IMG/VR virus record: IMGVR_UViG_3300002144_000141
Coordinates: 1 to 22,600 of that record
DNA from: a virus
Reading direction: 5' to 3' (one strand)
Length of the DNA: 22,600 nt
In this document: piece after piece, positions 836 to 20,666 of the stretch
How the letters are laid out: each line of letters starts with the position of its first letter
Position numbering within the stretch: the first letter of the stretch is position 1
Made by a program: the position numbers and the translations under genes
Notes under the pieces: generated by a model
Told to the model about the DNA's origin: nothing
The model's database searches: none
The model's input: the letters and a program-made list of their open reading frames with translations, nothing else

Positions 836-849
836 GGTAAAATGATTAT
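836..849 (+). promoter_or_regulatory. Promoter for connector operon, probably leaderless
   Basis: The box GGTAAAAT ends at 843, exactly 6 nt before the ATG at 850, which places the expected +1 on the A of ATG. No Shine-Dalgarno sequence precedes the start. An overlapping alternative is TTGGCT (806-811), a 17-nt spacer and TATATA (829-834), which would leave a leader of about 8 nt. Either way the leader is too short for a normal ribosome binding site. Confidence 0.6.
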
Positions 850-1260
850 ATGGCTAATACTGGTGTTGCACCTCCTGATTACACTACCGACGTGGGCAAG
901 GTTCGCGCACTCCTTGGTGATACCGATCCCACCGATGTTGCCGCTGGTGAAGGTACCTACATGTACTTCAGCGATGACGAGATTGGCGCGTTCCTCACAA
1001 TGTATGGGGACAACGCAAAGCTAGCGGCGGCTCGTTGCCTAGAGACAATTGCTGGCTCACAAGCCCTACTCCTCAAGTCCTGGTCCTCTGATGACCTGAC
1101 CGTTAACGGTGACCGGATTGCCGAGTCATTGCGCAAGCTTGCGGCACAGCTCCGCGAAGAGGCCCTACAAGATGAGTCTTCCGAATACTTTAATATGATT
1201 GCAATGTTTATAGATGACAACAATGACGGGATAGCGGACCCATACCCCTGGTGGAACTAG
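850..1260 (+). CDS. Head-to-tail adaptor (connector) protein
   Basis: This 136-residue acidic, helical protein has an opening (PPDYTTDVGKVRALLGDTDP) and a following stretch (YFSDDEIGAFL...DNAKLAAARCLETIA) typical of the gp6/gp15-type head-tail adaptor of actinobacteriophages. That protein forms a ring under the portal and joins it to the tail completion proteins. The start is the ATG 6 nt after a -10-like box. An ATG 8 nt earlier is in another frame and belongs to a shadow ORF. It opens a tightly packed block of adaptor, closure, gp10-like protein and tail terminator, which is the standard order. The next gene starts 1 nt after the stop codon. Confidence 0.82.
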   Translation: MANTGVAPPDYTTDVGKVRALLGDTDPTDVAAGEGTYMYFSDDEIGAFLTMYGDNAKLAAARCLETIAGSQALLLKSWSSDDLTVNGDRIAESLRKLAAQLREEALQDESSEYFNMIAMFIDDNNDGIADPYPWWN

Positions 1261-1261
1261 C

Positions 1262-1702
1262 GTGGCAATCTCTAAAAGCACGCCCATAGACTTCGCAAAG
1301 ATAGCGCTAGAGATGCGCACTATCGTGGCGCGCTGGTATAACGCTACGGTGGAAATCGTTGACCCTAACATAAGGGAACAGGCTTGGGATTTAGCCACCA
1401 ACGCATACTCTACGTCTAGCGAAAGTATTGTGTATTCTGGCAGTGCCCGCGTACAGCCCCTGAGAGCCTCGTCAGAGCCCGATATTACATTCACCCAGGG
1501 TTCCATAAGGGGAGTGAGGATTCAAGTCCCCTACGACGCCTCTGTGGGCCTTATGCGCAAGGGTTTTCAAGTGCGAGTTACAAGTGGTGGCGAAGACGTG
1601 TTATTAGAGAGCTTGAAGTTTGTGGTTGTTTCTGCGGTTAACTCTTCCTATGGCTGGAATAGAACAATCGAATGCGACGTTGACGTAAAGTCGGCGGAGT
1701 AA
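1262..1702 (+). CDS. Head closure (stopper) protein, DUF6093-like
   Basis: A GTG start is used, 1 nt after the adaptor stop, with a weak GGTGG about 7 nt upstream. The 146-residue product has an N-terminal helix (IALEMRTIVARWYNATVEIV) and then a beta-rich body with conserved-looking segments (SARVQPLR, QVPYDASVGLMRKGFQVRV). Together these resemble the DUF6093-type proteins found at this position in actinophages, which I take to be the head closure or stopper equivalent. The assignment depends on gene order as much as on sequence. The stop overlaps the next start as TAATG. Confidence 0.68.
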   Translation: MAISKSTPIDFAKIALEMRTIVARWYNATVEIVDPNIREQAWDLATNAYSTSSESIVYSGSARVQPLRASSEPDITFTQGSIRGVRIQVPYDASVGLMRKGFQVRVTSGGEDVLLESLKFVVVSAVNSSYGWNRTIECDVDVKSAE

Positions 1703-2253
1703 TGGCTAAGGGTTACGAAATAAAACTAGACCTTTCGGGTTTGCTTAAGGGCACTATGAAAATGAACAACATCATAATCGAAGAGTCCCGGGCCATGGCG
1801 GATGAGATTGGTGACTTTGCAGTAGATGAGATGCGCGCAATCATTCTTACCAGTGGTACTGGATTCAGCGATGCGGCTAGGGCGGCTGGTATAAACAAGG
1901 GTCCAGGTCGCTACAGGACTGGGCTAATGTACAATTCCGTTAAGCACAAAGTAAGCGTAGAGGGCAGCAGGGTATCGGCACAGTACGGCTGGATTGGCCT
2001 GGTCAGGAAATACTTTAAGCACCAAGACTCTGGTTTTAAGAATATATTCTTAGCATCGTACTCCGGGTCGGGATCACTGCGCGTTGCTAGTGGTGGCCCA
2101 ATAGTTAGAAAAAATCCATATGGTGGATACAAAAACACGCCAGGTATGTTTGCCCTAAGAGACTCGGCCAAGTCTGTCGAGTCGGAGCTTCCTAGATTCC
2201 TAAAGAAATACCGAGGAAGAATTACCCGAAGAATGAATAAGGAAATTTTCTAA
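1702..2253 (+). CDS. HK97 gp10-like neck/tail completion protein
   Basis: This 183-residue basic protein starts with an amphipathic helical region (about residues 20-50). A loop rich in G, R and Y (GPGRYRTGLMYNSV) follows, then a WIG..RKYFKHQDSG segment and a very basic C-terminus (FLKKYRGRITRRMNKEIF). This pattern matches HK97 gp10-like proteins, which sit between the head closure and tail terminator rings. It overlaps both neighbours by TAATG, so it is probably translated by reinitiation. Codon use is more A/T-rich than in the capsid and tube genes, consistent with low copy number. Confidence 0.72.
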   Translation: MAKGYEIKLDLSGLLKGTMKMNNIIIEESRAMADEIGDFAVDEMRAIILTSGTGFSDAARAAGINKGPGRYRTGLMYNSVKHKVSVEGSRVSAQYGWIGLVRKYFKHQDSGFKNIFLASYSGSGSLRVASGGPIVRKNPYGGYKNTPGMFALRDSAKSVESELPRFLKKYRGRITRRMNKEIF

Positions 2254-2711
2254 TGGCTGGAATAGATTTACTTGCTTATCAGGATGAGATTACAGCCCAT
2301 ATAGAATCAGCGTTTCCCGATTATGAAGTACTAGAGGATAACGTACTAGACGATGAGGCGATACTCCGTTCTCAAAACAAAACAAAACCATTTATTGTAT
2401 TGAGGTGGAGTGGCCTTAGCCGGAATTCTGTAGGCGCTTCCTTCTCTGGCGTGCGCCATGACGAATATATGTCTAACTTTGATTTGATTGCAGTTGCTCC
2501 CGCGCCAAAGATTGCTAGAACCGTATTGAATTATGTGATGGACGCCTTGATTGGGCACCAGCTTTCCAACGGGTACCCGCTAACTCCAATGCTGGGTCAA
2601 TCCGTATTCCCGCTTACGGAAACGGGCGCGTCTCCCATGCTGTACCTTGGTATCGGTTCACTACAATTTCGCTTCAACGCTGAAAACCCAGACTCGTATA
2701 TCACCCCGTAG
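2253..2711 (+). CDS. Tail terminator protein
   Basis: The 152-residue product has an N-terminal helix (LLAYQDEITAHIESAFPDYEV). A beta strand (PFIVLRWSG) follows, then a helix (APKIARTVLNYVMDALIG) and a C-terminal strand (LYLGIGSLQFRFNAE). This alpha/beta order fits tail terminator proteins (lambda gpU, HK97 gp9-like), which cap the tail tube and join it to the head. Position just before the tube genes supports the call. The start overlaps the previous stop as TAATG, with AAGGAAA upstream inside the preceding gene. Confidence 0.66.
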   Translation: MAGIDLLAYQDEITAHIESAFPDYEVLEDNVLDDEAILRSQNKTKPFIVLRWSGLSRNSVGASFSGVRHDEYMSNFDLIAVAPAPKIARTVLNYVMDALIGHQLSNGYPLTPMLGQSVFPLTETGASPMLYLGIGSLQFRFNAENPDSYITP

Positions 2712-2716
2712 ATGAT

Positions 2717-2730
2717 GGTAAACTAGGTAT
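2717..2730 (+). promoter_or_regulatory. Leaderless promoter for tail tube operon
   Basis: The box GGTAAACT (2717-2724) is followed by exactly 6 nt and then ATG at 2731. No -35 element or good ribosome binding site is visible. It would let the tail tube block be transcribed separately from the connectors. Confidence 0.55.
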
Positions 2731-2976
2731 ATGGTACTAGCACTTAATACTGTCTCCGGGCAGATTTCAGATGTGTCTCCCAAGACTCTCCTGCACCCCA
2801 AATTCAAGGACATTCTTGTTCCTGTGGAAGCGGGGACAAAACCGTATAACCCGGTAATGTACAAGCCGGGTACGGCTGAGGAGAAGTCCGAACAGCGCTC
2901 TGGTCTTTTCTCTTTTAAGAAAAAAGAAGAAGAGCAAGAACCCGAATCCAATATCGATATTGAGGAAGAGAACTAA
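2731..2976 (+). CDS. Small hypothetical protein upstream of tail tube genes
   Basis: The product has 81 residues. The first half carries a motif of the form HPKF-x3-LVPVEAGTKPYNPVMY (about residues 22-44). The second half is highly charged: a Lys cluster followed by a Glu-rich tail (KKKEEEQEPE...EEEN). Small proteins with a similar KPY-P-x-MY segment occur between tail terminator and tube genes in actinophages; I do not know their function. An assembly factor for the tube, or a minor virion protein, is possible. It overlaps the next gene as TAATG, which suggests stoichiometric coupling with the tube protein. Confidence 0.7.
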   Translation: MVLALNTVSGQISDVSPKTLLHPKFKDILVPVEAGTKPYNPVMYKPGTAEEKSEQRSGLFSFKKKEEEQEPESNIDIEEEN

Positions 2977-3491
2977 TGGCAAACGTAAGACTCTATCGTG
3001 AGAGCATTACATTCTGCCTCGCTCACCCGGAAGCCTTCGCAGACCGCACGGCTCCCACTGCCGCAGAGCTGAACAACACCATTTTGGTGAAGAACATTAC
3101 CTGCGCATTGAACGAGGATGGAACTACTTTCACGCTGGGTGACTCGGACACCGACGACTCAGTTACATTCTGTGACGCCGGTAACGTATCCACCCCAACT
3201 TTCTACAACCCAGAGGTAGTTATGGAATCATTCCGTGACGCCGATGTGGCCGCAGCCGGAGAATACAATGAGGCATTTGACCTTATGGCATTCCCCGATG
3301 TTGCTTATATTGCAGTCCTGCGCATCGGACCAAACAGCAACATCACGTTTGCTACCGGTGACCGCATCAAGATGGTCGGCGTGAAGACAGACTATGGTAT
3401 CGATACTCTCGGCAATGGCGAGAACATTCGTATGACCCAGTCTTTCATGAACAACGACTTCGTTAACTGGAACTACGAGGTGGCAGCATAA
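2976..3491 (+). CDS. Major tail (tube) protein 1
   Basis: This 171-residue beta-rich protein opens with VRLYRESITFCLAHPEAFAD-x4-PTAAELN. A dinucleotide-like acidic turn follows (DSDTDD), then NEAFDLMAFPDVAYIAVLRIGP and GDRIKMVGVKTDYG. Size, position between tail terminator and chaperones, and strong codon bias support a tail tube subunit, which polymerises into stacked hexameric rings around the tape measure. It is paralogous to the next gene: both carry AFAD-x4-PTAAE-x-N near the N-terminus and a DL-x2-P-x3-Y-x-V-x-RI segment in the middle. It overlaps both neighbours by TAATG. Confidence 0.72.
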   Translation: MANVRLYRESITFCLAHPEAFADRTAPTAAELNNTILVKNITCALNEDGTTFTLGDSDTDDSVTFCDAGNVSTPTFYNPEVVMESFRDADVAAAGEYNEAFDLMAFPDVAYIAVLRIGPNSNITFATGDRIKMVGVKTDYGIDTLGNGENIRMTQSFMNNDFVNWNYEVAA

Positions 3492-4240
3492 TGACCGATG
3501 TAAGAGTACCCGCAAGTGGTAACATCCGCGTGTGGTTTGCGCTTGACAGTGCATTCGCTGACTACAAAAACCCCACTGCTGCTGAGATTAACGCATCGCT
3601 AGACATCTCGAACGCTATCTCCTGGAACGACTTCGACTTCAACTTGGCAGCAAGTAACTCGCTGGAAGACCCCGCGATTACTGCTCTTGGTAAAGTTGTT
3701 GACCGTGGTTTTGCAAACTGGGGTGGCGGAATTTCGCTGTATTACCCCAAGAACTTCGATGACGCTAGCAGCATCTACTCGCAAGCGCACGACCTTCTCG
3801 ATGTGCCTCGCACAAAGGGATATGTTGTCATGCGTATTGATGGGCTTGAAGCCGCTGCCGTAGCGGCCAATGGTGAACTGGTGCATGTCCTGAAGGTAGT
3901 AACCGATGGATACGCAGAGTCAATCGTTGGAGAAGAAGCATTCCGTTACACGGTAACGCTACTCCCACAGGGTAACTACGCGGTTCGCACGGTTGTTGGT
4001 GGAGGGGCTGTTGTTCTTTCGGCTTCAACTCTCGCATCCGCCGTTGGCGACCACGACGCCCTGACCGCTACATGGGGTGGACGTAACTACACTGGTGGAC
4101 TTACCTGGACCACAAGCGACGCAACCAAGGCCACCGTTTCTAACGGTGGAATTGTAACTTCTGTTGCAACCGGAACGGCCACCATCACGGCGACCTCTCC
4201 CGACGCTTCAACGGATACCTGCGCGGTAACAGTCTCCTAG
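3491..4240 (+). CDS. Major tail (tube) protein 2 with C-terminal Ig-like (Big_2) domain
   Basis: The 249-residue product has a tail-tube-like body (residues 1 to about 165) paralogous to the preceding gene. A C-terminal domain of about 80 residues follows. It ends in the typical Big_2 pattern: LTWTTSDATKATVSNGGIVT, then a strand of the form GTATITATSP and a terminal CAVTVS. Ig-like domains on tail tube proteins project from the tail surface and are thought to give weak binding to cell surfaces or glycans. Strong codon bias suggests high expression. A UUCG-loop terminator lies 16 nt after the stop. Which of the two paralogues is the main tube subunit cannot be told from sequence. Confidence 0.75.
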   Translation: MTDVRVPASGNIRVWFALDSAFADYKNPTAAEINASLDISNAISWNDFDFNLAASNSLEDPAITALGKVVDRGFANWGGGISLYYPKNFDDASSIYSQAHDLLDVPRTKGYVVMRIDGLEAAAVAANGELVHVLKVVTDGYAESIVGEEAFRYTVTLLPQGNYAVRTVVGGGAVVLSASTLASAVGDHDALTATWGGRNYTGGLTWTTSDATKATVSNGGIVTSVATGTATITATSPDASTDTCAVTVS

Positions 4241-4256
4241 TAAAGACATAAGGAAC

Positions 4257-4285
4257 ACCCCCTCTTCGGAGGGGGTTTTTCTTTT
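4257..4285 (+). terminator. Rho-independent terminator after tail tube genes
   Basis: An 8-bp stem (ACCCCCTC paired with GAGGGGGT) closes a TTCG tetraloop in the very stable C(UUCG)G context. TTTTTCTTTT follows. It ends the tail tube operon. Confidence 0.93.
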
Positions 4286-4290
4286 GCCGT

Positions 4291-4298
4291 GGTAGTAT
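4291..4298 (+). promoter_or_regulatory. Promoter for tail assembly chaperone genes
   Basis: GGTAGTAT lies directly behind the terminator T-run and belongs to the same box family as those at 836, 2717, 5411, 18137 and 20653. Here the expected start near 4305 leaves a short leader carrying AGGAGG (4316-4321). Confidence 0.45.
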
Positions 4299-4325
4299 CT
4301 GCTAGAAGAAACTATAGGAGGAACA

Positions 4326-4967
4326 TTGTCCGAGCAAGAAGAAATCCGCGAAGCGGTTGATGCCGCGAAAGCACCTAGCAAATTTAACATTGTTGATGTT
4401 CTAAACAATAGAGCATACCCAGAGGCCGTTGTGAGCATCGTGATCGACGAGGCTCTGTCCTATGAAGCCGCAATGATTAAAGAACAAATAGAAGAACTTG
4501 AATTAAATATATCCGATAGCAAAAGCGCCAAGATTGAAGACTTAATTTTAAAGCGCGATGAGATTTCCAAGAAATTATCAGAGTCTTCATACAAGGTTCA
4601 CATTCGTGGTATCAGCGAGGGACAGCGTGAAGAGTCATACAATGACGCACGCAAGAAGTACCCAGTAGAATACGAATCCTCTAATAACATATCCGACATG
4701 CTGGCCGGAAATAGCACCAGGGTTGAAAAAGAATCAACACAGCGCGACACGTTGTTTACTGATTATCTATGGCAGAAGCACATTGTCAAGATTGTAAATC
4801 CAGATGGTGACGAGCAGGAACAGCTAGCCTTCAACACCGTGCGCACCATGCGGGATAGTTTTCCGCTTAGCGCTACTATGAAAATCAACGAAGCCATTGA
4901 GAAGCTTCGTACATCTACTGCTGTTTTCATGATGGAAACTGGTGAGGATTTTTTAGCGAAGCCCTAA
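4326..4967 (+). CDS. Tail assembly chaperone G, TTG start
   Basis: The start is TTG, 4 nt after AGGAGG (4316-4321); no ATG lies nearby in this frame. The 213-residue product is acidic and mostly helical. A coiled-coil-like segment spans about residues 50-90 (IKEQIEELELNISDSKSAKI, LKRDEISKKL). It lies immediately before the tape measure, the position of lambda gpG and its relatives, and its end carries a -1 slippery heptamer. Such proteins bind the tape measure and are absent from the mature virion. The unshifted product ends at TAA 4965-4967; shifted ribosomes make the longer G-T fusion. Confidence 0.85.
   Translation: MSEQEEIREAVDAAKAPSKFNIVDVLNNRAYPEAVVSIVIDEALSYEAAMIKEQIEELELNISDSKSAKIEDLILKRDEISKKLSESSYKVHIRGISEGQREESYNDARKKYPVEYESSNNISDMLAGNSTRVEKESTQRDTLFTDYLWQKHIVKIVNPDGDEQEQLAFNTVRTMRDSFPLSATMKINEAIEKLRTSTAVFMMETGEDFLAKP
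4949..4955 (+). promoter_or_regulatory. Programmed -1 ribosomal frameshift site T_TTT_TTA
   Basis: In the chaperone frame the codons are GAT TTT TTA GCG AAG CCC TAA, giving the canonical X_XXY_YYZ heptamer T_TTT_TTA 9 nt before the stop. Slipping back one base continues as AGC GAA GCC CTA and stays open to 5404. A possible stimulatory stem pairs GCCCTA (4961-4966) with TAGGGC (5019-5024), starting 5 nt after the heptamer, but it is only 6 bp with a long loop. Confidence 0.85.
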
Positions 4968-5410: not shown

Positions 5411-5418
5411 GGTAGAAT
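5411..5418 (+). promoter_or_regulatory. Promoter for tape measure gene
   Basis: GGTAGAAT is a close match to a -10 hexamer with the GG prefix shared by other promoters here. The expected start near 5425 leaves a leader of about 24 nt containing GAGGA (5441-5445) before the GTG start. Confidence 0.5.
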
Positions 5419-5448: not shown

Positions 5449-8400
5449 GTGGCTGAAGCTCTAAGTACAGGCGAGATATTAATTGAGACGGGTAAATCCC
5501 TCGCCAATATAAAACAACTTAACGCAACAATTAAACAGCTACAAAAAACAGTCAACAAGCGCACCAAAGAAATCTCTAATATCCAGGCCGTTAACGCGGC
5601 TCGACAAAAAGAGATAGCCGGTATCAAGGCAACTACCAAAGCCGGTAGAGCGCTTATAGCCTCTAAAACTGCACAAATCGCCAAGGACAAACAGGTTGCG
5701 GCTGGGCTAAAAGGAGCTAATACCCAAGCCCAAAAACAAATAGCTTTACTCAAGCAGCAAAAATCTGCGGCCAGTGGCGCTGCGGGTGGGATGAGCGGCC
5801 TAGGCAAGCCATCTCTTAGGTATGCGCTTTATGATGTTGGTAGCAATCTGCGTAGGATTGCCGTTGGCCTAGCTGCTGTCGCCGCAGTGCCCGTTGGCTT
5901 CGCTATTAAGTACGAACGAGATTTCGCAAACGTAGCAAGAACTACGGAAGTAACCGGGGAAAAGCTAAAGCAACTAAGAAAAGATTTAATTGCTATCTCT
6001 CAAGCTACGCCAGTATCCTGGGAAGACATTACCAATATTGCTACGCTTGCTGGACAATTAGGTATTGCTGAAGATTTGATTGCTGGGTTCACGGAAACCG
6101 TGGCCAAGTTTGCGGCAACAACTGACCTCAGCGTAGAGGCCGCTGCAACCGGCTTTGGTAGATTGAACCAGCTTATCGATGGAGTTGATGGACAGTTCGA
6201 CCAACTTGGTTCTGCAATCCTAGCCGTTGGTGTTAGCTCTGTCGCAACTGAATCGCAGATTGTAAACGTTGCCACAAACATTGCCTCAATGGGTAACCTA
6301 GCCGGTCTTAGCGCACAGGATATTGTTGGTCTATCTGGTGCCATGGCATCGCTTGGTATCAGGCCAGAGCTTGCACGGGGTAACATCACCAGGCTATTTT
6401 CTAATATAAATAAATCAATCGCAGAGGGTAGGTTCGCTCTTACTGAATACGGTCGCCTAACCGGAAGAACGGCAACTGAATTTTCTGACGCTTGGAGAAA
6501 CGAACCAACCAAGGTCCTGCTTGATTTCTTCGAAGGGATTCAAAGGGAGGGCAGGGACGCCGAAAGAACACTGCGCGATCTGGGCATTACCTCCGTGCGT
6601 GACATCCCAGCCTTCTTGCGTTTGGCGCAAAGCCAGGATGAAGTAAGGCGCTTGGTCGAGCTTAGTAATAAAGAATTTATTAGGGGACAAAAAATTAATG
6701 AACAATATGGAATTATTTCCGAAACAACGGCAGAGCAGCTAAAGAGGCTAGCTCAAAACTTTGCTACTCTAGGTTCGGCCATTGGCGGAAAATCACTTGG
6801 CCCCATTAACGCCTTTGTTATGGCGATAAATGAAGCAGTAGTGGGTGTGACCAATCTGCTGTCCACTGATGTTGGTGGCTGGATTGCTTTTAGTCTCATT
6901 GCTTTAGCTTTAGTTGTGGCTGCTTTTTTTGCAATAGTTAGCATTACCGCACTTGCCATTGCCGCCCTATCGGCAACCAAATTCGCCGTAGACAGTCTGG
7001 GCCTTAGCTTCACTGGTCTAACGACTAGAATGTTTTTCACTGGCGAAGCTTTTAAGAAAATAGGCATTACCTCCGCAATTGCCACGTTTGGTATGACTAA
7101 ATTTTTTAACGTTATTAAATATGGAACGCTAACACTTGGCGCATTGGGGTTAGTACTAGGAATTGTTGGAGCAATTTATAGCAAGTACACACAAAGAATA
7201 GAAAGAACCAAAAAGGTTCAGTCGGAACTATTTGGCAGTACGAAAAAACTAAACGAAGCCCTCGATAAAGATAAAGAAATTTTCGATACGACCGGCAAGG
7301 GAATTAGAACATTCACTGTCGAGCTTGAAGACAATACCGATAAAACTGACGATGCTTTTGATTCCGCCTACGAATTTGCAAACAGCCAGGAATCGGTTGC
7401 TGAAGAAACCGATAATGCTAATAAGGCTTTAGAGCAGCAGGGGCAAGCGCTTATTGTTGTCGGGCAAAACTTTTCCGACTTCGTTAGAACGCAGGCTTCT
7501 CAAAGTTCTGAATTAATATCTCTATTCGAAAATATAGATTTACAAAATGCTTTCAAGGACCAGTTTGAGGGTCTAGACGCTTTCCCCTCGTTTGTTGAAT
7601 TAGCCGTTGGCGATCCCGAAGAGGCCCGCAAACAATTAAAAGAGATTAGACAAGCGGTGCTAAATGAAATGATGCTTACGTCTAGCCCGCGCGAGCTACA
7701 AGAATTTAGCGATAGCCTCGCTCCCCTTTTCGATATGATTGATGCCCTCGAAAAGGGTACCTACGCTTCCAATGGATTAGTTGACGGGCTGGGTTTCGTG
7801 TCCGATGGAATGGAAGATATTGAAGACCGCGCAGACCTAGCTTCTGGAAAAATAGACATATTAATGAACTCAATCTTTGGCGCAGAGAATGCGGCGCGCG
7901 ACGCCACTGATGCCACTAGAGATTACTTCAACGAGTTGAATAACGGTGGCGATGCCGCTGATATAACTAGCGATAAATTCCAGAAGATGATTGATGCTAT
8001 TGCCGGTAATGAGTTCAGGTCCGTATCAGAACGAATCGGAGATTTGAATGAAGTCTTGGTGTACTTACAAAATAATGGTTTGGGTTCGTCATTAGCCGCA
8101 AAAGCAATCAGCGCCGCAATGGCGGGTCTAGCCGTTGCCGCCGAAGTTGCCGGTGGTTCCATCACCACGGTAGATGGAAAGTTACGCAGAACTAAGAGGA
8201 CTCTTGAGGAAATAATTGCTAGCGTTTCTCCTCTTATTGGATTGCTTGGCGCGGCAACTGAAGGATTTAATACCGTTGGAGACACCTCCAGTTCCGCGGC
8301 CTCTAAGGTTGAGACACTGGCCGAGAAGTTTGACAAACTACTAAGTAGCATTTTCTCTCCGGTACAAGCGGCACAAAGCGCGGCTAAATCTATACTTGAC

Positions 8401-10008
8401 CTTGGTTCGTCATATGCGGAACTTGGTGACGATGCGTTCTACGCTAGCAAGGAAATACAGGATGCCGTAAAGAATATTCTGAAAAGCTCATCCTCGCCAG
8501 AAGAGGGCGTGGCTAACCTTAATGCGCTTTACTCTCAATTGGCTAGTACGGTTGGCTCTGATACCGCGCCATCGCTTGAGTTCCTGCGTAGCACAATCAA
8601 CGCAGTCTCTCAGGAATTTGGTGTGGCCCAAGAGTCGGTTGCCGGGTTTGCCAACATAGACTTGAGCTTCTTCAACGATGGGCTAAAGGATGTCAAGGAA
8701 GAAGTTCGCACGCTCTTAGATTACGCCTCAGACCTAGAGTCCGTCTTCTCCCGTGCGTTTGACATTAGGTTCTCTAGCACCTTTGCGATTGACGACATAG
8801 CTGCTGCGTGGTTTGACTTGGGCGAGAACGTGGAAAGCGCGCGCCAGGAAATCGAAGACCTCAAGGCCAGCCAGGAAGACCTTAGCGCAGACCGCTCACT
8901 AAAGGAATACTTCCTCTCCGTTGCCGAAGCATATGGCGACACGCTCCGTGCGGGTATCTTGCGCGAAGAACTTGCCGCCCTAAATAGAGAACAACAAGAC
9001 AACGCGGATGCTATTGCAGAAGCACAGCAGATCGCTGGCGGGGACCTAACCACACAGGGTCCAGGTTCTAGGCAAAACAGAGCAGCGCTTCTCGGCCTTG
9101 TTGGAGACTACCAGGACTACATCACAGCGCTTGCTGAATCTGGCGCTAGCCAAGATGAGCTGCGCAAAGCCACAGAGCAGGCGCGTCAAGAGTTCATCGC
9201 TCAGGCGGTAGAGCTTGGCTACCAAGAAGATGTGGTCATGCAGTACGCTGCCGCATTTGATGATGTTCGCACTGCGATTGACCGCGTGCCTCGCAACATT
9301 ACGGTTGACGCCAATGTGAACCCAGCGCTCCAGGCTTTGAACGAGTTGAACGCAAAGCTGGATAAGAGCATTCAGAAAGCCAAAAAACTAAACTCGATTA
9401 CTGGCGGCGGCGGCAATAATAGCGGCGCTGGTGGCAGCGATGGCGATGGCGATAACGGTGGCGGTGATAATGCGACAACCGCAGCACAGGGGTTGGCGAA
9501 GGCGCAAAGTGATTACAAAGTAGCCGCAGCCGCTGTGGCTGCTGCCAGGGCTGGTATAGCAACGGCGTCAACGCCAAGAGAGTCGGATCAGTGGGCAAGC
9601 AGACTAGCTACTGCACAAAGACAATTAGCCGATGCGCAGGAGAGAATACGCCAAGCTAACAGTGTGGGTTTTGCTTCGGGTGGCTTTACTGGCGCTGGTA
9701 GCAAATACCAACCGGCTGGTATCGTCCACAAGGGTGAGTACGTTGTCCCCAAGCAGTACGTCAACCAGTCAACCGGAATGCCCGACGCTAACTTCTTATC
9801 GCAGTTACAGAACGGCATGCGCGGTTACGCAATGGGCGGCTTCGTCGGCGGTGGCGCAATGCCAGACTCCATGATGGTAGAGCTTTCGCCCTACGATCGC
9901 AAGCTCCTGGAGAACGCCGGTAACGTACAATTGAGAGTAGACGGCAAGGTTGTTGCCTCGGCCACAAACCGTAGCAACTTCAACGAAGCAAGGCGAGGAA
10001 GTAACTAA
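5449..10008 (+). CDS. Tape measure protein
   Basis: At 1519 residues this is the largest gene. It starts at GTG, 3-4 nt after GAGGA. Residues about 1-105 form a Lys/Gln/Ala-rich coiled coil. Residues about 130-460 resemble the phage tail tape measure core (FAIKYERDFANVARTTEVTG at about 152, then long helices). Hydrophobic segments at about 479-507 and 560-578 are likely membrane-active stretches used in DNA entry. A Gly/Asn/Asp-rich linker lies at about 1317-1342. The C-terminus has a motif common in this family (GFASGGFTGAG, then GIVHKGEYVVPKQYV, about 1406-1437). It sets tail length; at about 0.15 nm per residue the tail would be near 225 nm, which is an inference. Arg codons shift from AGA/AGG toward CGC/CGT after about 8650. 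The stop overlaps the next start as TAATG. Confidence 0.95.
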   Translation: MAEALSTGEILIETGKSLANIKQLNATIKQLQKTVNKRTKEISNIQAVNAARQKEIAGIKATTKAGRALIASKTAQIAKDKQVAAGLKGANTQAQKQIALLKQQKSAASGAAGGMSGLGKPSLRYALYDVGSNLRRIAVGLAAVAAVPVGFAIKYERDFANVARTTEVTGEKLKQLRKDLIAISQATPVSWEDITNIATLAGQLGIAEDLIAGFTETVAKFAATTDLSVEAAATGFGRLNQLIDGVDGQFDQLGSAILAVGVSSVATESQIVNVATNIASMGNLAGLSAQDIVGLSGAMASLGIRPELARGNITRLFSNINKSIAEGRFALTEYGRLTGRTATEFSDAWRNEPTKVLLDFFEGIQREGRDAERTLRDLGITSVRDIPAFLRLAQSQDEVRRLVELSNKEFIRGQKINEQYGIISETTAEQLKRLAQNFATLGSAIGGKSLGPINAFVMAINEAVVGVTNLLSTDVGGWIAFSLIALALVVAAFFAIVSITALAIAALSATKFAVDSLGLSFTGLTTRMFFTGEAFKKIGITSAIATFGMTKFFNVIKYGTLTLGALGLVLGIVGAIYSKYTQRIERTKKVQSELFGSTKKLNEALDKDKEIFDTTGKGIRTFTVELEDNTDKTDDAFDSAYEFANSQESVAEETDNANKALEQQGQALIVVGQNFSDFVRTQASQSSELISLFENIDLQNAFKDQFEGLDAFPSFVELAVGDPEEARKQLKEIRQAVLNEMMLTSSPRELQEFSDSLAPLFDMIDALEKGTYASNGLVDGLGFVSDGMEDIEDRADLASGKIDILMNSIFGAENAARDATDATRDYFNELNNGGDAADITSDKFQKMIDAIAGNEFRSVSERIGDLNEVLVYLQNNGLGSSLAAKAISAAMAGLAVAAEVAGGSITTVDGKLRRTKRTLEEIIASVSPLIGLLGAATEGFNTVGDTSSSAASKVETLAEKFDKLLSSIFSPVQAAQSAAKSILDLGSSYAELGDDAFYASKEIQDAVKNILKSSSSPEEGVANLNALYSQLASTVGSDTAPSLEFLRSTINAVSQEFGVAQESVAGFANIDLSFFNDGLKDVKEEVRTLLDYASDLESVFSRAFDIRFSSTFAIDDIAAAWFDLGENVESARQEIEDLKASQEDLSADRSLKEYFLSVAEAYGDTLRAGILREELAALNREQQDNADAIAEAQQIAGGDLTTQGPGSRQNRAALLGLVGDYQDYITALAESGASQDELRKATEQARQEFIAQAVELGYQEDVVMQYAAAFDDVRTAIDRVPRNITVDANVNPALQALNELNAKLDKSIQKAKKLNSITGGGGNNSGAGGSDGDGDNGGGDNATTAAQGLAKAQSDYKVAAAAVAAARAGIATASTPRESDQWASRLATAQRQLADAQERIRQANSVGFASGGFTGAGSKYQPAGIVHKGEYVVPKQYVNQSTGMPDANFLSQLQNGMRGYAMGGFVGGGAMPDSMMVELSPYDRKLLENAGNVQLRVDGKVVASATNRSNFNEARRGSN

Positions 10009-13980: not shown

Positions 13981-15741
13981 ATGCTGTGGTACCAGCTAGC
14001 TGATAGCTGGGGGCTCGTCGGTGGAACATGGTCCACCATTGGAAACATTACCCAAGACCCCGGTGGCGAGATATTCGTCCGCTTATCGGGCACGGGTAGT
14101 TTTGCAGGGCACGCATCAAACGTCATCAACTACTCCTACTCGGAGGGATCGACACCCCTAGTACCCGGCGACGAATCCGGGGCGATCGGTGACGTAAGCA
14201 TCGAGGTGCTCAACGAAAACGACGCATCGATTCTGCTATACAAAGATGACTTCTACCTGCAAGATAACTTCCACGGGTCAGTACAGGGTTCCATCGAAAG
14301 CGTCAGCGGTAACAATGATGCCGTGACAATGGGTGGGCGCAGTCGCCTATCGGTTCTCAATATCGATGCCGTAATCCCACCACGCACGGGCACCATCGGA
14401 AACATTATCGAAAATGTTATTGCCGACCTGGGTTACACCACTAACATTCTTCAAGACGTAGGGCTTAGTACCAGTACCGTAAACGCTCCCGGTTACGAGG
14501 GTGACGTATGGGTTTACATCAAGCGTCTTTGCTCTGCATACGAAACTGAAGTTACCGTGATCCGGGACTACATTGTTATTCGACCTACGCGCCAACGCAC
14601 CATTGATGCCACAAACCTTGTTGACAAGAGCTGGCAGGTTCAGGACATTGAGCTGGCGCAAACGTTCGACGTTGCCTACTACAACTACACACCTCGCACG
14701 GACTACCTGGTCTACCCCGAGGGTGGCTGGAACTCCGAGGTACAGGTTTACTCGGTAGCGTTTGGCGAGACCACTGAGTTTGAACTTGACCTGGACTTCT
14801 TCCTTACTAGCGTGCAACAACCGCAGGTATTCGATACCGTAGCCAAAGATTACGGAACCGTCTCCTGCTATTCCGTTTCGGGTAACGATAACCTTCCCGT
14901 TAGCGCAGCGTTCTGGACCGACTTCGGTGGCGCTATGAGCTTCGAGATTCTCGGAGATGGCTCTCGGGTCAGGATAACCATTACTGGCCCCACATACGAG
15001 GCCCTGTCGCCTTACAGCATTAGTATCAGCGACGGCTCCACAAGCTACTCCACGCTGCGCATGGTCGGTACTGGCATGGACTTCAACCGTTTGCTATACA
15101 CCGAGTACACCGGGCTGACCGAAGATGACACACCAAATGTCAAGGGTGACGAGATAGATAACCTTGCCATTAACACACTGGCGGATGCTAAGCGTTACGC
15201 TTTGTTTGCACGCAGGTTGTACTCACTGCCGACACAAACATTTAGCACGAGCAGTAACACGTTCCCCAGGCTTAAGGGTTCCATCCCCTCCATCTTTTAC
15301 CCCACGTTTGATGACTTCGATGACACGTTGGCAACTGGCTACAGTTTTGCTAACTTCAACTCGGATTACACGGGGATAACATTTGACCAGTTCACTGGCG
15401 CCCTGGCCAATATTGTGCCACAGGGTTTCGGTGAAGTTGCTGGTTCTCGTGTGCAACTTGATGACGCCATGTACCGCGTGCGATCCAGTAATATCACCCC
15501 GGACATCATCTCCTTTGACGCGGAGTACGACACATTGTTTAGCGACCTTGACGACGTGTACGGCGCGGCGTTGTGGAACGCCCTGGAACCATCGTGGACC
15601 GGAATCGGTTCCACATGGACTACCGTGGTTTCCTTGCCCTACGGTGAGAAAACTTTTGGAGAATTCAACTCTGCGTTTGGTAATATAAACTTCCAAGATT
15701 ACGCTTTGATGCCTTTGAGAACGGTGCCGGTTGCAGCATGA
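13981..15741 (+). CDS. Minor tail protein, likely tail hub/baseplate component
   Basis: The 586-residue product has beta-rich N-terminal domains (PGGEIFVRLSGTGSF, DVSIEVLNENDASILLYKDD). A central region (GTIGNIIENVIADLGYTT, VYIKRLCSAYETEVTVIRDY) resembles the tail hub fold of siphovirus baseplate proteins. A later stretch (ADAKRYALFARRLYSLPTQT) is typical of hub or Tal-like proteins in actinophages. Residues about 2-20 (LWYQLADSWGLVGGTWSTI) are echoed at about 531-549 (LWNALEPSWTGIGSTWTTV), an internal repeat. The ATG is 4 nt after the preceding stop, with no strong ribosome binding site. The stop overlaps the next start as ATGA. Oddly, the fibre genes precede it. Confidence 0.66.
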   Translation: MLWYQLADSWGLVGGTWSTIGNITQDPGGEIFVRLSGTGSFAGHASNVINYSYSEGSTPLVPGDESGAIGDVSIEVLNENDASILLYKDDFYLQDNFHGSVQGSIESVSGNNDAVTMGGRSRLSVLNIDAVIPPRTGTIGNIIENVIADLGYTTNILQDVGLSTSTVNAPGYEGDVWVYIKRLCSAYETEVTVIRDYIVIRPTRQRTIDATNLVDKSWQVQDIELAQTFDVAYYNYTPRTDYLVYPEGGWNSEVQVYSVAFGETTEFELDLDFFLTSVQQPQVFDTVAKDYGTVSCYSVSGNDNLPVSAAFWTDFGGAMSFEILGDGSRVRITITGPTYEALSPYSISISDGSTSYSTLRMVGTGMDFNRLLYTEYTGLTEDDTPNVKGDEIDNLAINTLADAKRYALFARRLYSLPTQTFSTSSNTFPRLKGSIPSIFYPTFDDFDDTLATGYSFANFNSDYTGITFDQFTGALANIVPQGFGEVAGSRVQLDDAMYRVRSSNITPDIISFDAEYDTLFSDLDDVYGAALWNALEPSWTGIGSTWTTVVSLPYGEKTFGEFNSAFGNINFQDYALMPLRTVPVAA

Positions 15742-16339: not shown

Positions 16340-16366
16340 TGATGAAGAACAAACAAGGAGTTTCGC

Positions 16367-16540
16367 ATGGCATCAGCAACTAGCCCCTCTGGGATTGTAT
16401 ATCCAGACGCTAGCGATCCTATCGCGCCGTTAAACACGGTGTTTAAGGACCTGGCTGATTCGGTCGAAGCTGCTCTTACTGGTGGCCCAAGTTCCGTGGT
16501 CTCCGGATTCGAACAAACTTTCCTCATGATGGGTGCATAA
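16367..16540 (+). CDS. Small tail/fibre protein, 57 aa
   Basis: This 57-residue gene has a near-ideal ribosome binding site, AAGGAG 6 nt before ATG, and a promoter just upstream. The product contains YPDASDPIAPLNTVFKDLAD, a short pattern seen at the N-termini of fibre and collar-like phage proteins. It may be a fibre anchor or a small structural protein. It ends 3 nt before the next gene. Confidence 0.62.
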   Translation: MASATSPSGIVYPDASDPIAPLNTVFKDLADSVEAALTGGPSSVVSGFEQTFLMMGA

Positions 16541-16543
16541 CCA

Positions 16544-16876
16544 ATGGCTAACGCTTACAAAGTCCTCGCTCAATCGGCTCCGGCCGCTACTACGGCTACC
16601 GATGTTTACACGGTACCTGCCGCTACCGAGGCTGTTATCTCTACGCTGATTATTGCGAACCGTGCCGCTTCTGCTGGCACCTACCGCATCTCAGTTCGCC
16701 CCGATGGTGCGGCTCAGTCCGACCTCCACTACGTCGCTTACGATGTTCCCGTGGCTGCTAACGACTCGACCACGCTGACCCTGGGTATCACCCTGAACGC
16801 TGCTGATGTCATCACGCTATATTGCTCTTCGGCTGATATGTCAATCAACGTTTTCGGTACCGAGATCACCGCCTAG
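16544..16876 (+). CDS. Small beta-sandwich virion protein
   Basis: The 110-residue product is beta-rich: VYTVPAATEAVISTLIIANR, then YRISVRPDG, DLHYVAYDVPVAANDSTTLT, LGITLNAADVITLYCSSADM and SINVFGTEIT. This pattern is common in structural proteins of marine and actinobacterial phages, often encoded among fibre genes. Strong C-ending codon bias suggests high expression. The start is 3 nt after the preceding stop, with no clear ribosome binding site of its own, so reinitiation is likely. Capsid or tail decoration is inferred. Confidence 0.62.
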   Translation: MANAYKVLAQSAPAATTATDVYTVPAATEAVISTLIIANRAASAGTYRISVRPDGAAQSDLHYVAYDVPVAANDSTTLTLGITLNAADVITLYCSSADMSINVFGTEITA

Positions 16877-16890
16877 TAAAGGAGTAACTG

Positions 16891-17724
16891 ATGGCTGTTA
16901 CTCGTATGTCCCAGAGTGGAATTAACACTTTTAGTCGCTACCGGAATATGGCCGAAAACATTGACGAGGTGGTTACGGTTTCCGCTACTTACTTAGTAAT
17001 TGGTGGTGGTGGTGGCGGTGGGAACACAGGTCTTGGCCTTCGAGGCGGAGGCGGCGGCGCTGGAGGCTATCGCTCTAGCGTCTCTGCGGAGTCTTCGGGC
17101 GGCGGCCTCACTGCTGAATATCCGATGGCTCTCGATTCTGGCTCGACATATCAAGTCAAGGTCGGAGCTGGAGGTGCTGCCGCAACTGCGGGCACGTCTT
17201 CAATTTTGGGACTAGTCACTTCAATAGGTGGAGGCAGGGGAGGAGACGCCAACATCGGTGGCTGCAACGCGGGCGGCGGAGGCTCGGGCGGTGGAGGCGG
17301 CTGGCCGTCAGGCGGCGGGAGTTGTGGCGGAGCGGGCGGAACTTATGGACAAGGCTACGCCGGAGGCACAGGTGGTCATACTCCAGGGGTTGATGCTGCT
17401 GGAGGCGGCGGCGGTGGAGCTGGAGGCATTGGAGGAAACAGAGCTGGAACTGGAAATGGAGCTGGAGGCATTGGAGTCTCATCTTCTATCACTGGCTCCG
17501 CTATCACTCGGGCGGAGGGTGGAAACCTCGCCCCAGTAACCGCAAACACCGGTGGCGGTGGCCAGGGAAACGCATCTTCTGGACAGTCGGGCGTTGTCAT
17601 TATCAGAGTCCCCGATTCTGTGACTATCACTCCTGGAGCTAGCCACGTTATGTCTGTGGCGACTGTGGGCTCAAACAATGTCTATACTTTCACCGCAGGC
17701 GATGACCTGATTACGATTGGATAA
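16891..17724 (+). CDS. Glycine-rich tail fibre/adhesin protein C
   Basis: The 277-residue product has AAAGGAG 6 nt before ATG. A short N-terminal part (MSQSGINTFSRYRNMAENID) differs from the MALDFP anchor of proteins A and B. The glycine-rich domain starts at TYLVIGGGGGGG (about residue 33) and ends at SGVVIIRVPDS, matching the domain borders in A and B. A C-terminal extension of about 32 residues (GASHVMSVATVGSNNVYTFT) follows. It is probably a third receptor-binding or fibre-tip protein with its own anchor. Two Cys residues lie within the glycine-rich part. The stop overlaps the next gene as TAATG. Confidence 0.67.
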   Translation: MAVTRMSQSGINTFSRYRNMAENIDEVVTVSATYLVIGGGGGGGNTGLGLRGGGGGAGGYRSSVSAESSGGGLTAEYPMALDSGSTYQVKVGAGGAAATAGTSSILGLVTSIGGGRGGDANIGGCNAGGGGSGGGGGWPSGGGSCGGAGGTYGQGYAGGTGGHTPGVDAAGGGGGGAGGIGGNRAGTGNGAGGIGVSSSITGSAITRAEGGNLAPVTANTGGGGQGNASSGQSGVVIIRVPDSVTITPGASHVMSVATVGSNNVYTFTAGDDLITIG

Positions 17725-18146
17725 TGATGGCACATTACGCATATATAAACGCGGACAACATTGTGACAGAGGTCATCGCGGGACCCGAAGAAACTTCCAA
17801 ACCCGAACACTTCGAGTCTTGGGAGGAATACTTTTCTGCAAAAGGCAAGGGAAGGTGTCTTAGGACGTCTTTCAATACCAGAGGAAACTCCTACTACTCT
17901 CTGAAGACTGGAAAGCTGGCAAAGGACCAGACTAAAGCTTTTAGGTTCAACTATGCGGGTATTGGTTACACCTACGATGAAACGCGCGATGCTTTCATTC
18001 CGCCAACGCCTTACCCTTCGTGGGTTCTCGATGAGGCAACCTGCCAATGGGAAGCGCCAATTGCGTACCCTACTGATGGGGCAAGCTACGCCTGGGATGA
18101 GCAAGCCGGTGACTGGGTGGTCACCCCTGAAGGTGCGGTAGAATAG
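17724..18146 (+). CDS. Phage fibre-associated protein with W/P-rich C-terminal motif
   Basis: The 140-residue product has two adjacent candidate starts (ATGATG); the second, at 17727, gives the more typical MAHYAYIN opening. The pattern AYINADNIVTEVIAG near the N-terminus and IPPTPYPSWVLDEATCQWEA plus DGASYAWDEQAGDW at the C-terminus occurs in structural proteins of marine phages, often beside fibre genes. The function is unknown; a tail accessory or fibre-cap role is plausible. The stop lies inside the promoter box of the following gene. Confidence 0.6.
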   Translation: MMAHYAYINADNIVTEVIAGPEETSKPEHFESWEEYFSAKGKGRCLRTSFNTRGNSYYSLKTGKLAKDQTKAFRFNYAGIGYTYDETRDAFIPPTPYPSWVLDEATCQWEAPIAYPTDGASYAWDEQAGDWVVTPEGAVE

Positions 18147-18150
18147 ATAC
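18137..18150 (+). promoter_or_regulatory. Leaderless promoter GGTAGAAT overlapping a stop codon
   Basis: GGTAGAAT (18137-18144) is followed by exactly 6 nt and then ATG 18151. It overlaps the TAG of the preceding gene (18144-18146). No ribosome binding site is present. Confidence 0.55.
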
Positions 18151-18432
18151 ATGGCTACCTTTCACGATCTTCTTACGCTGAGCGACACGACCGCAACCGA
18201 GCTTACCCCTGGCGCACGCCACTCAGGGCTTGACTTGACCGTCCAGAACGTTGACGCTGCTGCCATTGTTTACATTGGTGGCGTTGGTGTTACCGCTTCT
18301 GACTACGGCTTCAAGCTTACCCCTGGTGCTGGGTTCTCCATCGAGTTGAACCCTAACGATCGCTTGTACGCAATCAGCGACACGGATACTTCACAAGCCG
18401 CGCTACTGCGTGCCCTCCTAGAGGACATTTAA
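18151..18432 (+). CDS. Small virion structural protein, 93 aa
   Basis: This beta-rich protein contains LDLTVQNVDAAAIVYIGGVG and VTASDYGFKLTPGAGFSIEL, then LYAISDTDTSQAALLRALLE. The YIGGxGVTASDYGFKL pattern is widespread in short phage virion proteins, probably a decoration or tail-associated subunit. The ATG lies 6 nt after a -10-like box, which suggests a leaderless mRNA. It starts a four-gene chain with TAATG overlaps that leads into the endolysin. Confidence 0.63.
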   Translation: MATFHDLLTLSDTTATELTPGARHSGLDLTVQNVDAAAIVYIGGVGVTASDYGFKLTPGAGFSIELNPNDRLYAISDTDTSQAALLRALLEDI

Positions 18433-18530
18433 TGGCTACCATCTGGCCCGCGCCGGGTGGAGGAAGTGCGCCAACCGCACCGGAGAACCTTGTTGCCGAT
18501 GCTATTGACGCCATGGTAACCCTGGGCTAA
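18432..18530 (+). CDS. Tiny protein, 32 aa, MATIWPAPG start
   Basis: This 32-residue ORF exactly fills the space between two genes, with TAATG overlaps at both ends, which argues that it is translated. It starts MATIWPAPGGGSAPTAPENL and ends in a short helix-like stretch (VADAIDAMVTLG). The N-terminus is similar to that of the following gene (MATFYPAPG). It may be a duplicated remnant of a fibre anchor or a small structural peptide. No function is known to me. Confidence 0.55.
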   Translation: MATIWPAPGGGSAPTAPENLVADAIDAMVTLG

Positions 18531-18715
18531 TGGCAACGTTCTATCCTGCGCCAGGAACATCTGGACCGACCGTTACAGTATCCGGTACCGAACCAAGCTC
18601 GCCCGACAGTGGCGATCTCTGGTACGACACCAGCACCAACGATATGAAGGTTTATGTTGTTGACGCCTTTGTTGCGGTGGCCGATGCTCACAGCACATGG
18701 AGCCTTACTCACTAA
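18530..18715 (+). CDS. Small fibre-like protein with GDLWYD motif
   Basis: The 61-residue product starts MATFYPAPG and contains GDLWYDTSTNDMKVYVVD, the same GDLW-D-x-MxVY motif found twice in the fibre gene at 10857. It resembles a single detached repeat unit of that fibre. TAATG overlaps tie it to the genes on both sides, including the endolysin. It is probably a tail fibre component; a regulatory role in controlling endolysin translation by coupling is also possible. Confidence 0.57.
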   Translation: MATFYPAPGTSGPTVTVSGTEPSSPDSGDLWYDTSTNDMKVYVVDAFVAVADAHSTWSLTH

Positions 18716-19407
18716 TGAAACTTCAACAGCCATGGCCCGCAGATAAGTCCATCAACAAAAACAGTCCGTTTGGATGGCGCGTCCACCCGATTTCTAAAAA
18801 GAAGAAATTTCACAATGGAGTAGACGTAGCCGGTAGCTTTCCCGTTACCGCTGCTGCCGATGGCGTTGTTAGCCATGTAGGTTATTCCCGCACGGGCGGC
18901 GGGCACACCGTGCTGATTGACCATGGGGAAATTGTCACCGTGTATTACCACGGCGCTCACGCCACTTGGTTGCGCAAGGGTCAACGGATTGAGGCTGGAG
19001 ATGCGGTCTTTACTTCCGGAAGTACCGGAGCAAGCACGGGCAACCATCTTCACTTCGAAGTCCGCAAACGCGGAGGCCGTTGGGGAAATGTCTTAGACCC
19101 AGAATTATATTTAGACGGTAAGGCTCCGGCCCCAGTAAACAATGTCTCTGGCAAGCTCGACAAGGCCACCTGGAAGCAGTGGCAGACCGCGCTCAAGGAG
19201 TATGGATACTCCGGACGCATTGATGGCATCCCCGGCAAGATGACCTACAAGGCTATGCAGAAGTGGGCCGGTGTCAAACAAGACGGCATCATTGGAGCCA
19301 ACACCCGCCGTGCCGTACAGTCCAAGCTAGGCGTAAAAGCCGATGGCAAATGGAGCAAGATGACAATCAGTGAACTACAGCGCCGCCTCAACAAAGGTTC
19401 AATATAG
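18715..19407 (+). CDS. Endolysin: M23 metallopeptidase plus peptidoglycan-binding domain
   Basis: The 230-residue product has an N-terminal LytM/M23 domain (about 15-135). It carries the zinc motif HNGVD (H33, D37), YYHGAH (H79) and the HLHFEV box (H111, H113), the catalytic set of zinc endopeptidases that cut peptidoglycan cross-bridges. Residues about 145-230 form a PG_binding_1-type domain with two repeats (GRIDGIPGKMTYKAMQKWAG and KQDGIIGANTRRAVQSKLGV). No signal peptide is seen, so export should depend on a holin. The start is the ATG of a TAATG overlap; the in-frame ATG 18 nt upstream lies in the preceding gene and lacks a better ribosome site. Confidence 0.93.
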   Translation: MKLQQPWPADKSINKNSPFGWRVHPISKKKKFHNGVDVAGSFPVTAAADGVVSHVGYSRTGGGHTVLIDHGEIVTVYYHGAHATWLRKGQRIEAGDAVFTSGSTGASTGNHLHFEVRKRGGRWGNVLDPELYLDGKAPAPVNNVSGKLDKATWKQWQTALKEYGYSGRIDGIPGKMTYKAMQKWAGVKQDGIIGANTRRAVQSKLGVKADGKWSKMTISELQRRLNKGSI

Positions 19408-19408
19408 A

Positions 19409-19648
19409 ATGTCTGGTGACGACACGGACTCGATTGGCTTAAGGATTACATTGCGCGATGTGTATCGCGAGCAGCAGGAGATGAAATCACTGCTGGAGAA
19501 ACTCGCCAACAGTCTTCCCAATACGGAAGATAAGCTTACCGATCATGAGATTCGGCTACGCAAGCTTGAGATGCGCGTTGGCTGGGCTGTCGGATCGTTC
19601 GGCTTGCTAGCCGCGCTCGCCCCGTTCTTTGCGAAGATTATTCCGTAA
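19409..19648 (+). CDS. XhlA-like coiled-coil membrane protein (lysis accessory)
   Basis: The 79-residue product starts at ATG, 1 nt after the endolysin stop. Residues about 12-53 form a charged coiled coil (LRDVYREQQEMKSLLEKLAN, then TDHEIRLRKLEMRVGW). Residues about 57-77 form one C-terminal membrane helix (VGSFGLLAALAPFFAKII). This matches the layout of XhlA-type proteins, which act with a holin and amidase in lysis. Its place directly behind the endolysin supports a holin or holin-helper role. Its last 11 nt overlap the end of the convergent leftward gene, with no terminator between them. Confidence 0.7.
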   Translation: MSGDDTDSIGLRITLRDVYREQQEMKSLLEKLANSLPNTEDKLTDHEIRLRKLEMRVGWAVGSFGLLAALAPFFAKIIP

Positions 19649-19880
19649 ACTCTTCGGGTTCCATTGTCATCGCGCCCCAGTTTAGTAGGCCGCTGACAGC
19701 GTAGAGCGCCGTGCCTGACGAGCGGTGCAGGACTATCTGCTCACGCCCTTCGGAAGACTCCATGTCACTGATTGAAGCGACCAGAACCCAGTCCTTGACC
19801 ATAGATACCTGGTCGCCCAGTTCTTCGCCCACATGGGCGCTGATGGCTTCTGAGAGTATGTCGTAGCTCTCAGCGCTCAC
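19638..19880 (-). CDS. Small hypothetical phage protein, 80 aa
   Basis: This leftward gene starts with GTG overlapping the exonuclease stop (GTGA), so it is translated after the exonuclease. GGAG lies about 11 nt upstream. The product is acidic, with a central WVLVASISDMESSEGREQIV followed by LHRSSGTALYAVSGLL, a pattern I associate with short unnamed actinophage proteins. A small alpha/beta fold is likely; the function is unknown. It ends 11 nt inside the convergent lysis gene, which is unusual. Confidence 0.65.
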   Translation of the reverse strand: MSAESYDILSEAISAHVGEELGDQVSMVKDWVLVASISDMESSEGREQIVLHRSSGTALYAVSGLLNWGAMTMEPEEFTE

Positions 19881-20608
19881 AACGCACGCATCTCCACGTT
19901 GCCCTCTTTTTGCTTACTGCGGGACCACTTGCCACAGTTCTGACACTGGAACTTCTGGTAACGACCAGTTGCCAGTGGCTCGTAACCGCGTCTGTTCAAA
20001 TCTGCTGACCCACAGTTCGGGCATCCATCGTCATGACCATCGTGCGTGGGCACGCCAGGGTGCTTTATCCAAGGGAGGAGTATCTCGTACAGGTCGATAA
20101 GAAGGTTTACGTCCTGAATCTGGTACTTCTTCATTTCCTTCCAGGACTTCTCGTCACCAGCCATGCAGCCAAGCCACAGGTCAAACCCGGTGTGACTAAC
20201 CTTGGCTCCAACGCCAAGCCTTTGTGCCACGTAGTCAAGTTTGTTGGATGGGAACCGGAAGTTTTTGCGCACCTCAAGCATCAGGTCGATGTCTTTGGTG
20301 GGCGATGGTGGCAACATGCCAGCCTCTAGAAACTCTCGGCGGATGTGCTTGTGATCGAAGCCCTTCGAGTTCCAGCCAACGATAGCGTCGGCCTCACCCA
20401 TCAATCGGTGTAGCTCCTCCAGCATTTCCTTCTTGCCGTCATGGTGAACCGACCTGAAGATAACCTTCTTCTGTCCGTACCACCGTGCGCCAAAGCATAT
20501 AACCTCGGTTGATTCTACTATTTGCTTAAGAGAAATATTCTGCTGCCACAATCCCCAAGTGTGAGCCGTAATTGGACTTGTCTCTAAATCGAAAAATAAT
20601 ATCTTCAT
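19877..20608 (-). CDS. DnaQ/RNase H-like DEDDy 3'-5' exonuclease with C-terminal zinc ribbon
   Basis: The 243-residue product starts MKILFFDLETSP (D7, E9: Exo I). It has GWNSKGFD (N80, D85: Exo II) and YQIQD (Y162, D166: Exo III, the DEDDy pattern), so all four acidic residues and the Tyr are present. This matches the RNase H-like 3'-5' exonuclease family of phages. The C-terminal ~50 residues carry CPNCG (C196, C199) and CQNCG (C222, C225), a zinc ribbon probably used for nucleic acid binding. The start is set at the ATG giving MKILFF; the GTG or ATG-like starts further up would cross the likely promoter. A role in DNA replication, repair or host DNA breakdown is inferred. It runs opposite to the lysis genes around it. 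Confidence 0.9.
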   Translation of the reverse strand: MKILFFDLETSPITAHTWGLWQQNISLKQIVESTEVICFGARWYGQKKVIFRSVHHDGKKEMLEELHRLMGEADAIVGWNSKGFDHKHIRREFLEAGMLPPSPTKDIDLMLEVRKNFRFPSNKLDYVAQRLGVGAKVSHTGFDLWLGCMAGDEKSWKEMKKYQIQDVNLLIDLYEILLPWIKHPGVPTHDGHDDGCPNCGSADLNRRGYEPLATGRYQKFQCQNCGKWSRSKQKEGNVEMRAL

Positions 20609-20616
20609 AATGTCAG

Positions 20617-20625
20617 AGCCTATCA
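20617..20625 (-). promoter_or_regulatory. Promoter for leftward exonuclease operon, near-leaderless
   Basis: On the minus strand the sequence reads TGATAGGCT, an extended -10 (TGa-TAGGCT, hexamer 20622-20617), followed by 8 nt and ATG. A weak -35 (TTGTAG) lies 16 nt upstream of the hexamer. No ribosome binding site precedes the start. Confidence 0.45.
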
Positions 20626-20652
20626 CGGAAACATTCAACTACAACTCGAAGT

Positions 20653-20666
20653 GGTAAAATGGAGTA
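20653..20666 (+). promoter_or_regulatory. Leaderless promoter GGTAAAAT for the holin operon
   Basis: GGTAAAAT ends at 20660, exactly 6 nt before ATG 20667. The GGAG within the 6-nt spacer is only 2 nt from ATG, too close to act as a normal ribosome site. It is divergent from the exonuclease promoter 30 nt away. Confidence 0.58.

Follow-up and report, generated by a model that had tools for sequence, protein, structure and literature searches.

The GGTA(A/G)(A/T)(A/C)T boxes of this phage are most probably (roughly 0.86) host housekeeping sigma-A promoters, which would give leaderless mRNAs where they stand exactly 6 nt before an ATG and would restart the virion block in several units. For these promoters we infer where transcription starts, the use of sigma-A, translation without a leader and a late timing.

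The window, the whole 22.6-kb stretch analysed, is the complete IMG/VR fragment. It is a siphophage virion block with the gene order head protease, g01-g05, two major tail proteins, tail assembly chaperone, tape measure, minor tail proteins and endolysin. A 3'-5' exonuclease gene lies 3' of this block on the opposite strand. A direct DNA similarity search against isolated phages gave no match. The nearest isolated phages by tape measure have Clavibacter (CMP1) and Microbacterium hosts, and a relative contig with 82% identity in the major tail protein belongs to a metagenome bin named uncultured Microbacteriaceae. Taken together, the bin and these isolated phages indicate that the host is probably a member of Microbacteriaceae. 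The relative set was built with the first major tail protein as query on viral contigs, resulting in 26 IMG/VR relatives; g04 and g19 as queries found no relatives among viral contigs. In one relative, G057 (44,487 bases, locus L017), identical sites return 40.9 kb apart, so the record appears to extend beyond one full genome length.

The features of the window, with promoters and leaderless starts as predicted, are as follows.

699 to 726, plus strand: strong intrinsic terminator, a 12-pair stem with 9 G-C pairs, then TTTTCTTTTG.
836 to 843, plus strand: promoter box GGTAAAAT, with -10 hexamer TAAAAT at 838-843, 6 nt before ATG 850.
850 to 1260, plus strand: g01, 136 aa, head-tail region, predicted leaderless; phrog_18316 match (2e-26), homologues share the start Met.
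2717 to 2724, plus strand: promoter box, extended -10 TGGTAAACT, conserved in all 26 relatives.
2731 to 2976, plus strand: g05, 81 aa, 5' of the two major tail genes, predicted leaderless; 26 homologues, start shared.
4257 to 4276, plus strand: strong intrinsic terminator 3' of the second major tail protein gene (-22.7 kcal/mol, z -3.9, T tail).
4290 to 4298, plus strand: extended -10 promoter TGGTAGTAT with a 5' leader; TGNTANNNT is kept at the site in relatives.
4326 to 4967, plus strand: tail assembly chaperone gene, TTG start, leadered, AGGAGG; phrog_15960 match (4e-27).
5411 to 5418, plus strand: tape measure promoter box GGTAGAAT, leadered in the window; box conserved at the site.
5449 to 10008, plus strand: tape measure protein gene, GTG start, GAGGAA ribosome site; phrog_17594 match (5e-133).
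18137 to 18144, plus strand: promoter box GGTAGAAT, overlapping the end of the preceding gene; gap 6 in L033, L035, L036 and L037.
18151 to 18432, plus strand: g21, 93 aa, predicted leaderless; homologues share the start Met.
20653 to 20660, plus strand: promoter box, extended -10 TGGTAAAAT, divergent from the exonuclease gene; TAAAAT and gap 6 in L033-L040 and L106.
20667 to 20747, plus strand: conserved 26-aa small ORF (MSEFESINGVQCPIDPMEALNCESCQ), predicted leaderless; tblastn matches in 43 loci.

All six boxes proposed in the earlier note (836, 2717, 4291, 5411, 18137 and 20653) are present at these coordinates. Those at 836, 2717, 18137 and 20653 are followed by exactly 6 nt and then by ATG (850, 2731, 18151 and 20667), and judged from the sequence only, these ATGs have no ribosome site at the usual distance. 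The remaining two have the normal leader ascribed to them, with AGGAGG before TTG 4326 and GAGGAA before GTG 5449. That the boxes depart from chance holds for their placement and not for the box itself. GGTARWMT alone occurs 8 times in the window with 4.7 expected and is not enriched, whereas 4 of these 8 boxes have the exact 6-nt gap and ATG, with 0.12 expected (P = 2.9e-6). A reversed control pattern was never found 6 nt from an ATG in the window. The two other copies, at 15679 (plus strand) and 9105 (minus strand), are both intragenic and look like chance occurrences. Across six long relatives (42-52 kb each) the gap from GGTARWMT to ATG is 6 in 24 cases and any other value in at most 4; the phage sites share descent, so counts across them are not independent.

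Conservation points the same way. Upstream of the g01 and g05 ATGs, TA(A/G)A(A/C)T or a near form is found in 26/26 relatives with gap 6; at g05 the gap is 7 in L025, L030 and L031, where a one-nucleotide leader is possible. Box and gap are conserved at both genes in these 26 relatives while the sequence further upstream varies. At g21 and the 26-aa ORF, box and gap are kept in the nearer relatives. In a more distant group the sequence 5' of the 26-aa ORF is of another kind, and AGGA or AGGAG is often present in it. This ORF is divergent from the exonuclease gene and has a conserved ending, DPM..(L/M).C(D/E)SCQ. Since tblastn matches to relatives start at residue 1 for all four ATGs, the 26-aa ORF included, all four look like real starts. 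The claim of leaderless starts at 850, 2731, 18151 and 20667 thus gains comparative support from the exact gap, conservation and the shared start Met, and these starts, predicted from sequence, can be considered strongly supported.

The tape measure gene has one promoter used in two apparent ways. The box at 5411 is conserved before this gene in relatives. In L007, L012, L017, L020, L027, L028 and L029 it is followed at gap 6 by a leaderless ATG. In the window and eleven other records the gap-6 ATG is absent and the start is about 30 nt further, at GTG, TTG or ATG, in most cases behind a ribosome site. Mapped on the tape-measure tree, leaderless and leadered labels require at least two changes. 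The site offers a natural contrast between leaderless and leadered initiation under a single conserved promoter. It also bears on the alternative that the conserved boxes are not promoters at all but, for example, a DNA-binding site or a signal for translation within a longer mRNA. Here the box persists whether the start is a leaderless ATG or lies behind a leader of about 30 nt with a ribosome site, as would suit a promoter but not a translation signal. Its sequence and its distance to the start are those of a -10 element, and terminators precede two of the boxes, so a non-promoter function is very improbable.

The terminator at 699-726 lies 3' of the ORF ending at 684 (head protease match) and 5' of the 836 promoter. 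A promoter is found 3' of each terminator: 836 (leaderless) after 699-726, and 4290 (leadered, AGGAGG) after 4257-4276. A candidate second terminator just 5' of 836 was rejected, as its RNA folding was no better than that of shuffles, and only the 699-726 and 4257-4276 stems were kept.

Two other genes of the window show comparable variation in relatives. The divergent exonuclease gene and 26-aa ORF are separated by a 58-bp gap (20609-20666), with TGATAGGCT on its minus strand, 8 nt ahead of the ATG of the exonuclease. At this start, a GTG with a ribosome site takes their place in some relatives, and the exonuclease promoter seems to vary between leaderless and leadered forms like the tape measure promoter. 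The endolysin region (18697-19407) is preceded by a small gene at 18530-18715. The endolysin start in the window is probably ATG 18712-18714 or nearby, reached via stop-start overlap with this small gene; in several relatives the endolysin has a leaderless box of its own.

Clavibacter phage CMP1 and Microbacterium phage Hortus1 have a related virion block and a like -10 before the genes at the g01 and g05 positions. CMP1-26 has TGTAGAAT-6-ATG before the gene at the g05 position, with gap 6 as in the window. Unlike the window, Hortus1 has gap 7 at both the g01 and g05 positions (TAGAAT, 7 nt, ATG). The deposited ATGs of Hortus1 (L006) at 2974 and 4815 overlap the TAGAAT -10 box, and its true starts are likely the ATGs 9 nt downstream. 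Recognising the promoter helps gene-start annotation here, since it shows two deposited starts to lie within it, probably 9 nt too far upstream.

The composition of the box suggests how it is read. Among 87 non-redundant phage sites with TAnnnT at -12, T is found at -15 in 56%, G at -14 in 75% and G at -13 in 62%, followed by TA(A/g)A(A/c)T. G-14 is present in 65/87 sites (background 28%) and TG in 42/87 (background 7%). In the window, TG precedes the boxes at 2717, 4291 and 20653, and the others have only G-14. No -35 was found, in agreement with the earlier note: phage and host sites alike show no peak of TTG or TTGACA around -35, and the phage profile has no TTG peak between -45 and -23. 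The full form of the box, TGG-TA(A/G)A(A/C)T, is that of an extended -10 lacking a -35. These sites share with actinobacterial sigma-A leaderless promoters a TAnnnT whose first T is at about -12, no -35 requirement and ATG or GTG at the expected +1, and with extended -10 elements the TG (or G) at -15/-14. In Mycobacterium tuberculosis the -10 is TANNNT without a -35, and activity is highest with TGN before the -10 (PMC3898074). In Corynebacterium glutamicum, TAnnnT is likewise found and 33% of mRNAs are leaderless (PMC3890552), and in mycobacteria ATG or GTG at +1 is sufficient for leaderless translation (PMC4633059).

The probable host family uses the same position. In Microbacteriaceae genomes TAnnnT occurs at the phage-equivalent -12 position in 8-12% of gene starts. 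In G006 it is found there in 85/705 genes, with a mean of 6.3 at other positions. In G021, whose base composition is near that of the phage, it is found in 49/592 genes and in 51 more at -13, with 18.5 elsewhere. Whole-genome counts of GGTANNNT-N6-ATG are above control in most of the host family, but small genomes from the genus of the bin show no such excess; the TAnnnT position profiles were judged the better test. G021 boxes favour A at -8 and T at -1, as in the phage, and have G-14 in 25/49 (51%, background 31%, P = 0.005). In G006 boxes G-14 is not significant (28/85, 33%, background 27%). G-14 is therefore commoner in the phage (65/87) than in either host genome, and ATG is the start codon in 94% of the phage set as against 47% and 61% in the two. 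The GG prefix is best read as an extended -10 that the phage would apply more strictly than the host.

The earlier note had suggested that a dedicated sigma factor or phage activator reads the GG prefix. A phage-encoded sigma factor or RNA polymerase recognising GG would account for a phage box more uniform than host boxes. However, Sigma70_r2 has no match in eight relatives (records possibly incomplete), with control genomes positive, and Sigma70_r4 gives sub-cutoff matches only in the same eight. A search for a single-subunit RNA polymerase gave no match, but as its control had no match anywhere either, this result carries no weight. GG is not invariant either: relatives have GG, GC or TG before the hexamer at g01 and g05, and GA at other sites. 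Because of this variation GG is not a prefix code of its own, and the G at -14 is that of an extended -10. A phage polymerase or sigma factor is thus highly unlikely, and of the suggestion only the activator is left as a possibility.

That possibility comes from WhiB-like proteins, found above cutoff in 8/8 relatives; the open frames read have cysteines and a GIWGG motif. WhiB-like proteins bind sigma-A region 4, so with such a gene in all eight relatives an activator role is possible. In L210, L212 and L213 a conserved gene directly follows the WhiB-like gene, with the strand shared. Host sigma-A would then be altered by a phage factor, and the late promoters would form one class that fires only once the WhiB-like protein has remodelled region 4, the -35 reader. 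Two further observations agree with such a system, and neither is demanded of plain host promoters. One is the stronger G-14 relative to host leaderless boxes. The other is a late-strand bias: in six relatives boxes precede 27/209 late genes and 3/150 early genes (Fisher P = 1.5e-4), and the strict box pattern occurs 30 times on the late strand and once on the early strand, counts that are weakened by related sites and possibly by fewer operon heads on the early strand. However, host boxes at the equal position also have no -35, which makes a factor unnecessary; WhiB-like genes are common in actinophages and may serve other roles; and no shared operator-like motif is found 5' of the -10 in the listed sites. 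A phage-specific late system of this kind is therefore unlikely, though less so than a phage sigma factor. If it were true, extended -10, -35-less leaderless promoters would be the late programme of this actinophage group, and WhiB-like control would make these promoters an accessible model for sigma-A remodelling.

Under the preferred reading of host sigma-A promoters, the host RNA polymerase with sigma-A would read the TAnnnT -10, mostly strengthened by TG or G at -15/-14, without a -35. With the -10 exactly 6 nt before it, the ATG would be the first codon of the mRNA, which the actinobacterial ribosome would translate without a leader. Such promoters would divide the long virion block into several units by restarting transcription at the head of each, and at two sites or more the restart would come directly 3' of a terminator. 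Within a unit, genes would be reached mostly by stop-start overlap or ribosome sites. On the two strands 43%-48% of called genes overlap the stop of the preceding gene; many can therefore do without their own promoter.

The closest known parallels are in Actinobacteria, where, as the earlier note stated, leaderless mRNAs are common and leaderless genes with this promoter type are standard (PMC3160421; PMC3890552). Actinobacterial leaderless genes (PMC3160421; PMC3898074; PMC3890552) share with the phage the TANNNT at about -12, the distance to the start, the weak or absent -35 and ATG or GTG at +1. The phage boxes differ in lying in virion operons and in a stronger extended -10. A literature search for transcript-start maps of such phages found none. 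SigA promoters without leaders had already been predicted in Corndog and other Cluster O mycobacteriophages, with PL2 within the structural operon (PMC4351075). There as here, an actinophage promoter has its +1 predicted at the first base of a start codon. However, in Cluster O PL2 serves a leftward gene and PL1/PR2 are a divergent pair (PMC4351075), while here several virion-direction promoters restart the virion block, and to this extent the arrangement does differ. Leaderless middle and late mRNAs are also reported for Thermus phage phiYS40 (review PMC3594737). The likeness is in late phage transcripts without leaders, predicted from sequence in the present case; phage and host are unrelated, and phiYS40 is reported to change IF2/IF3 levels (PMC3594737). 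Compared with these systems, the phage promoters are the ordinary promoter style of the host group and not a new type of switch: for its late programme, an aquatic actinophage group appears to rely on leaderless promoters of host style, which occur several times in each virion block and are kept across distant relatives.
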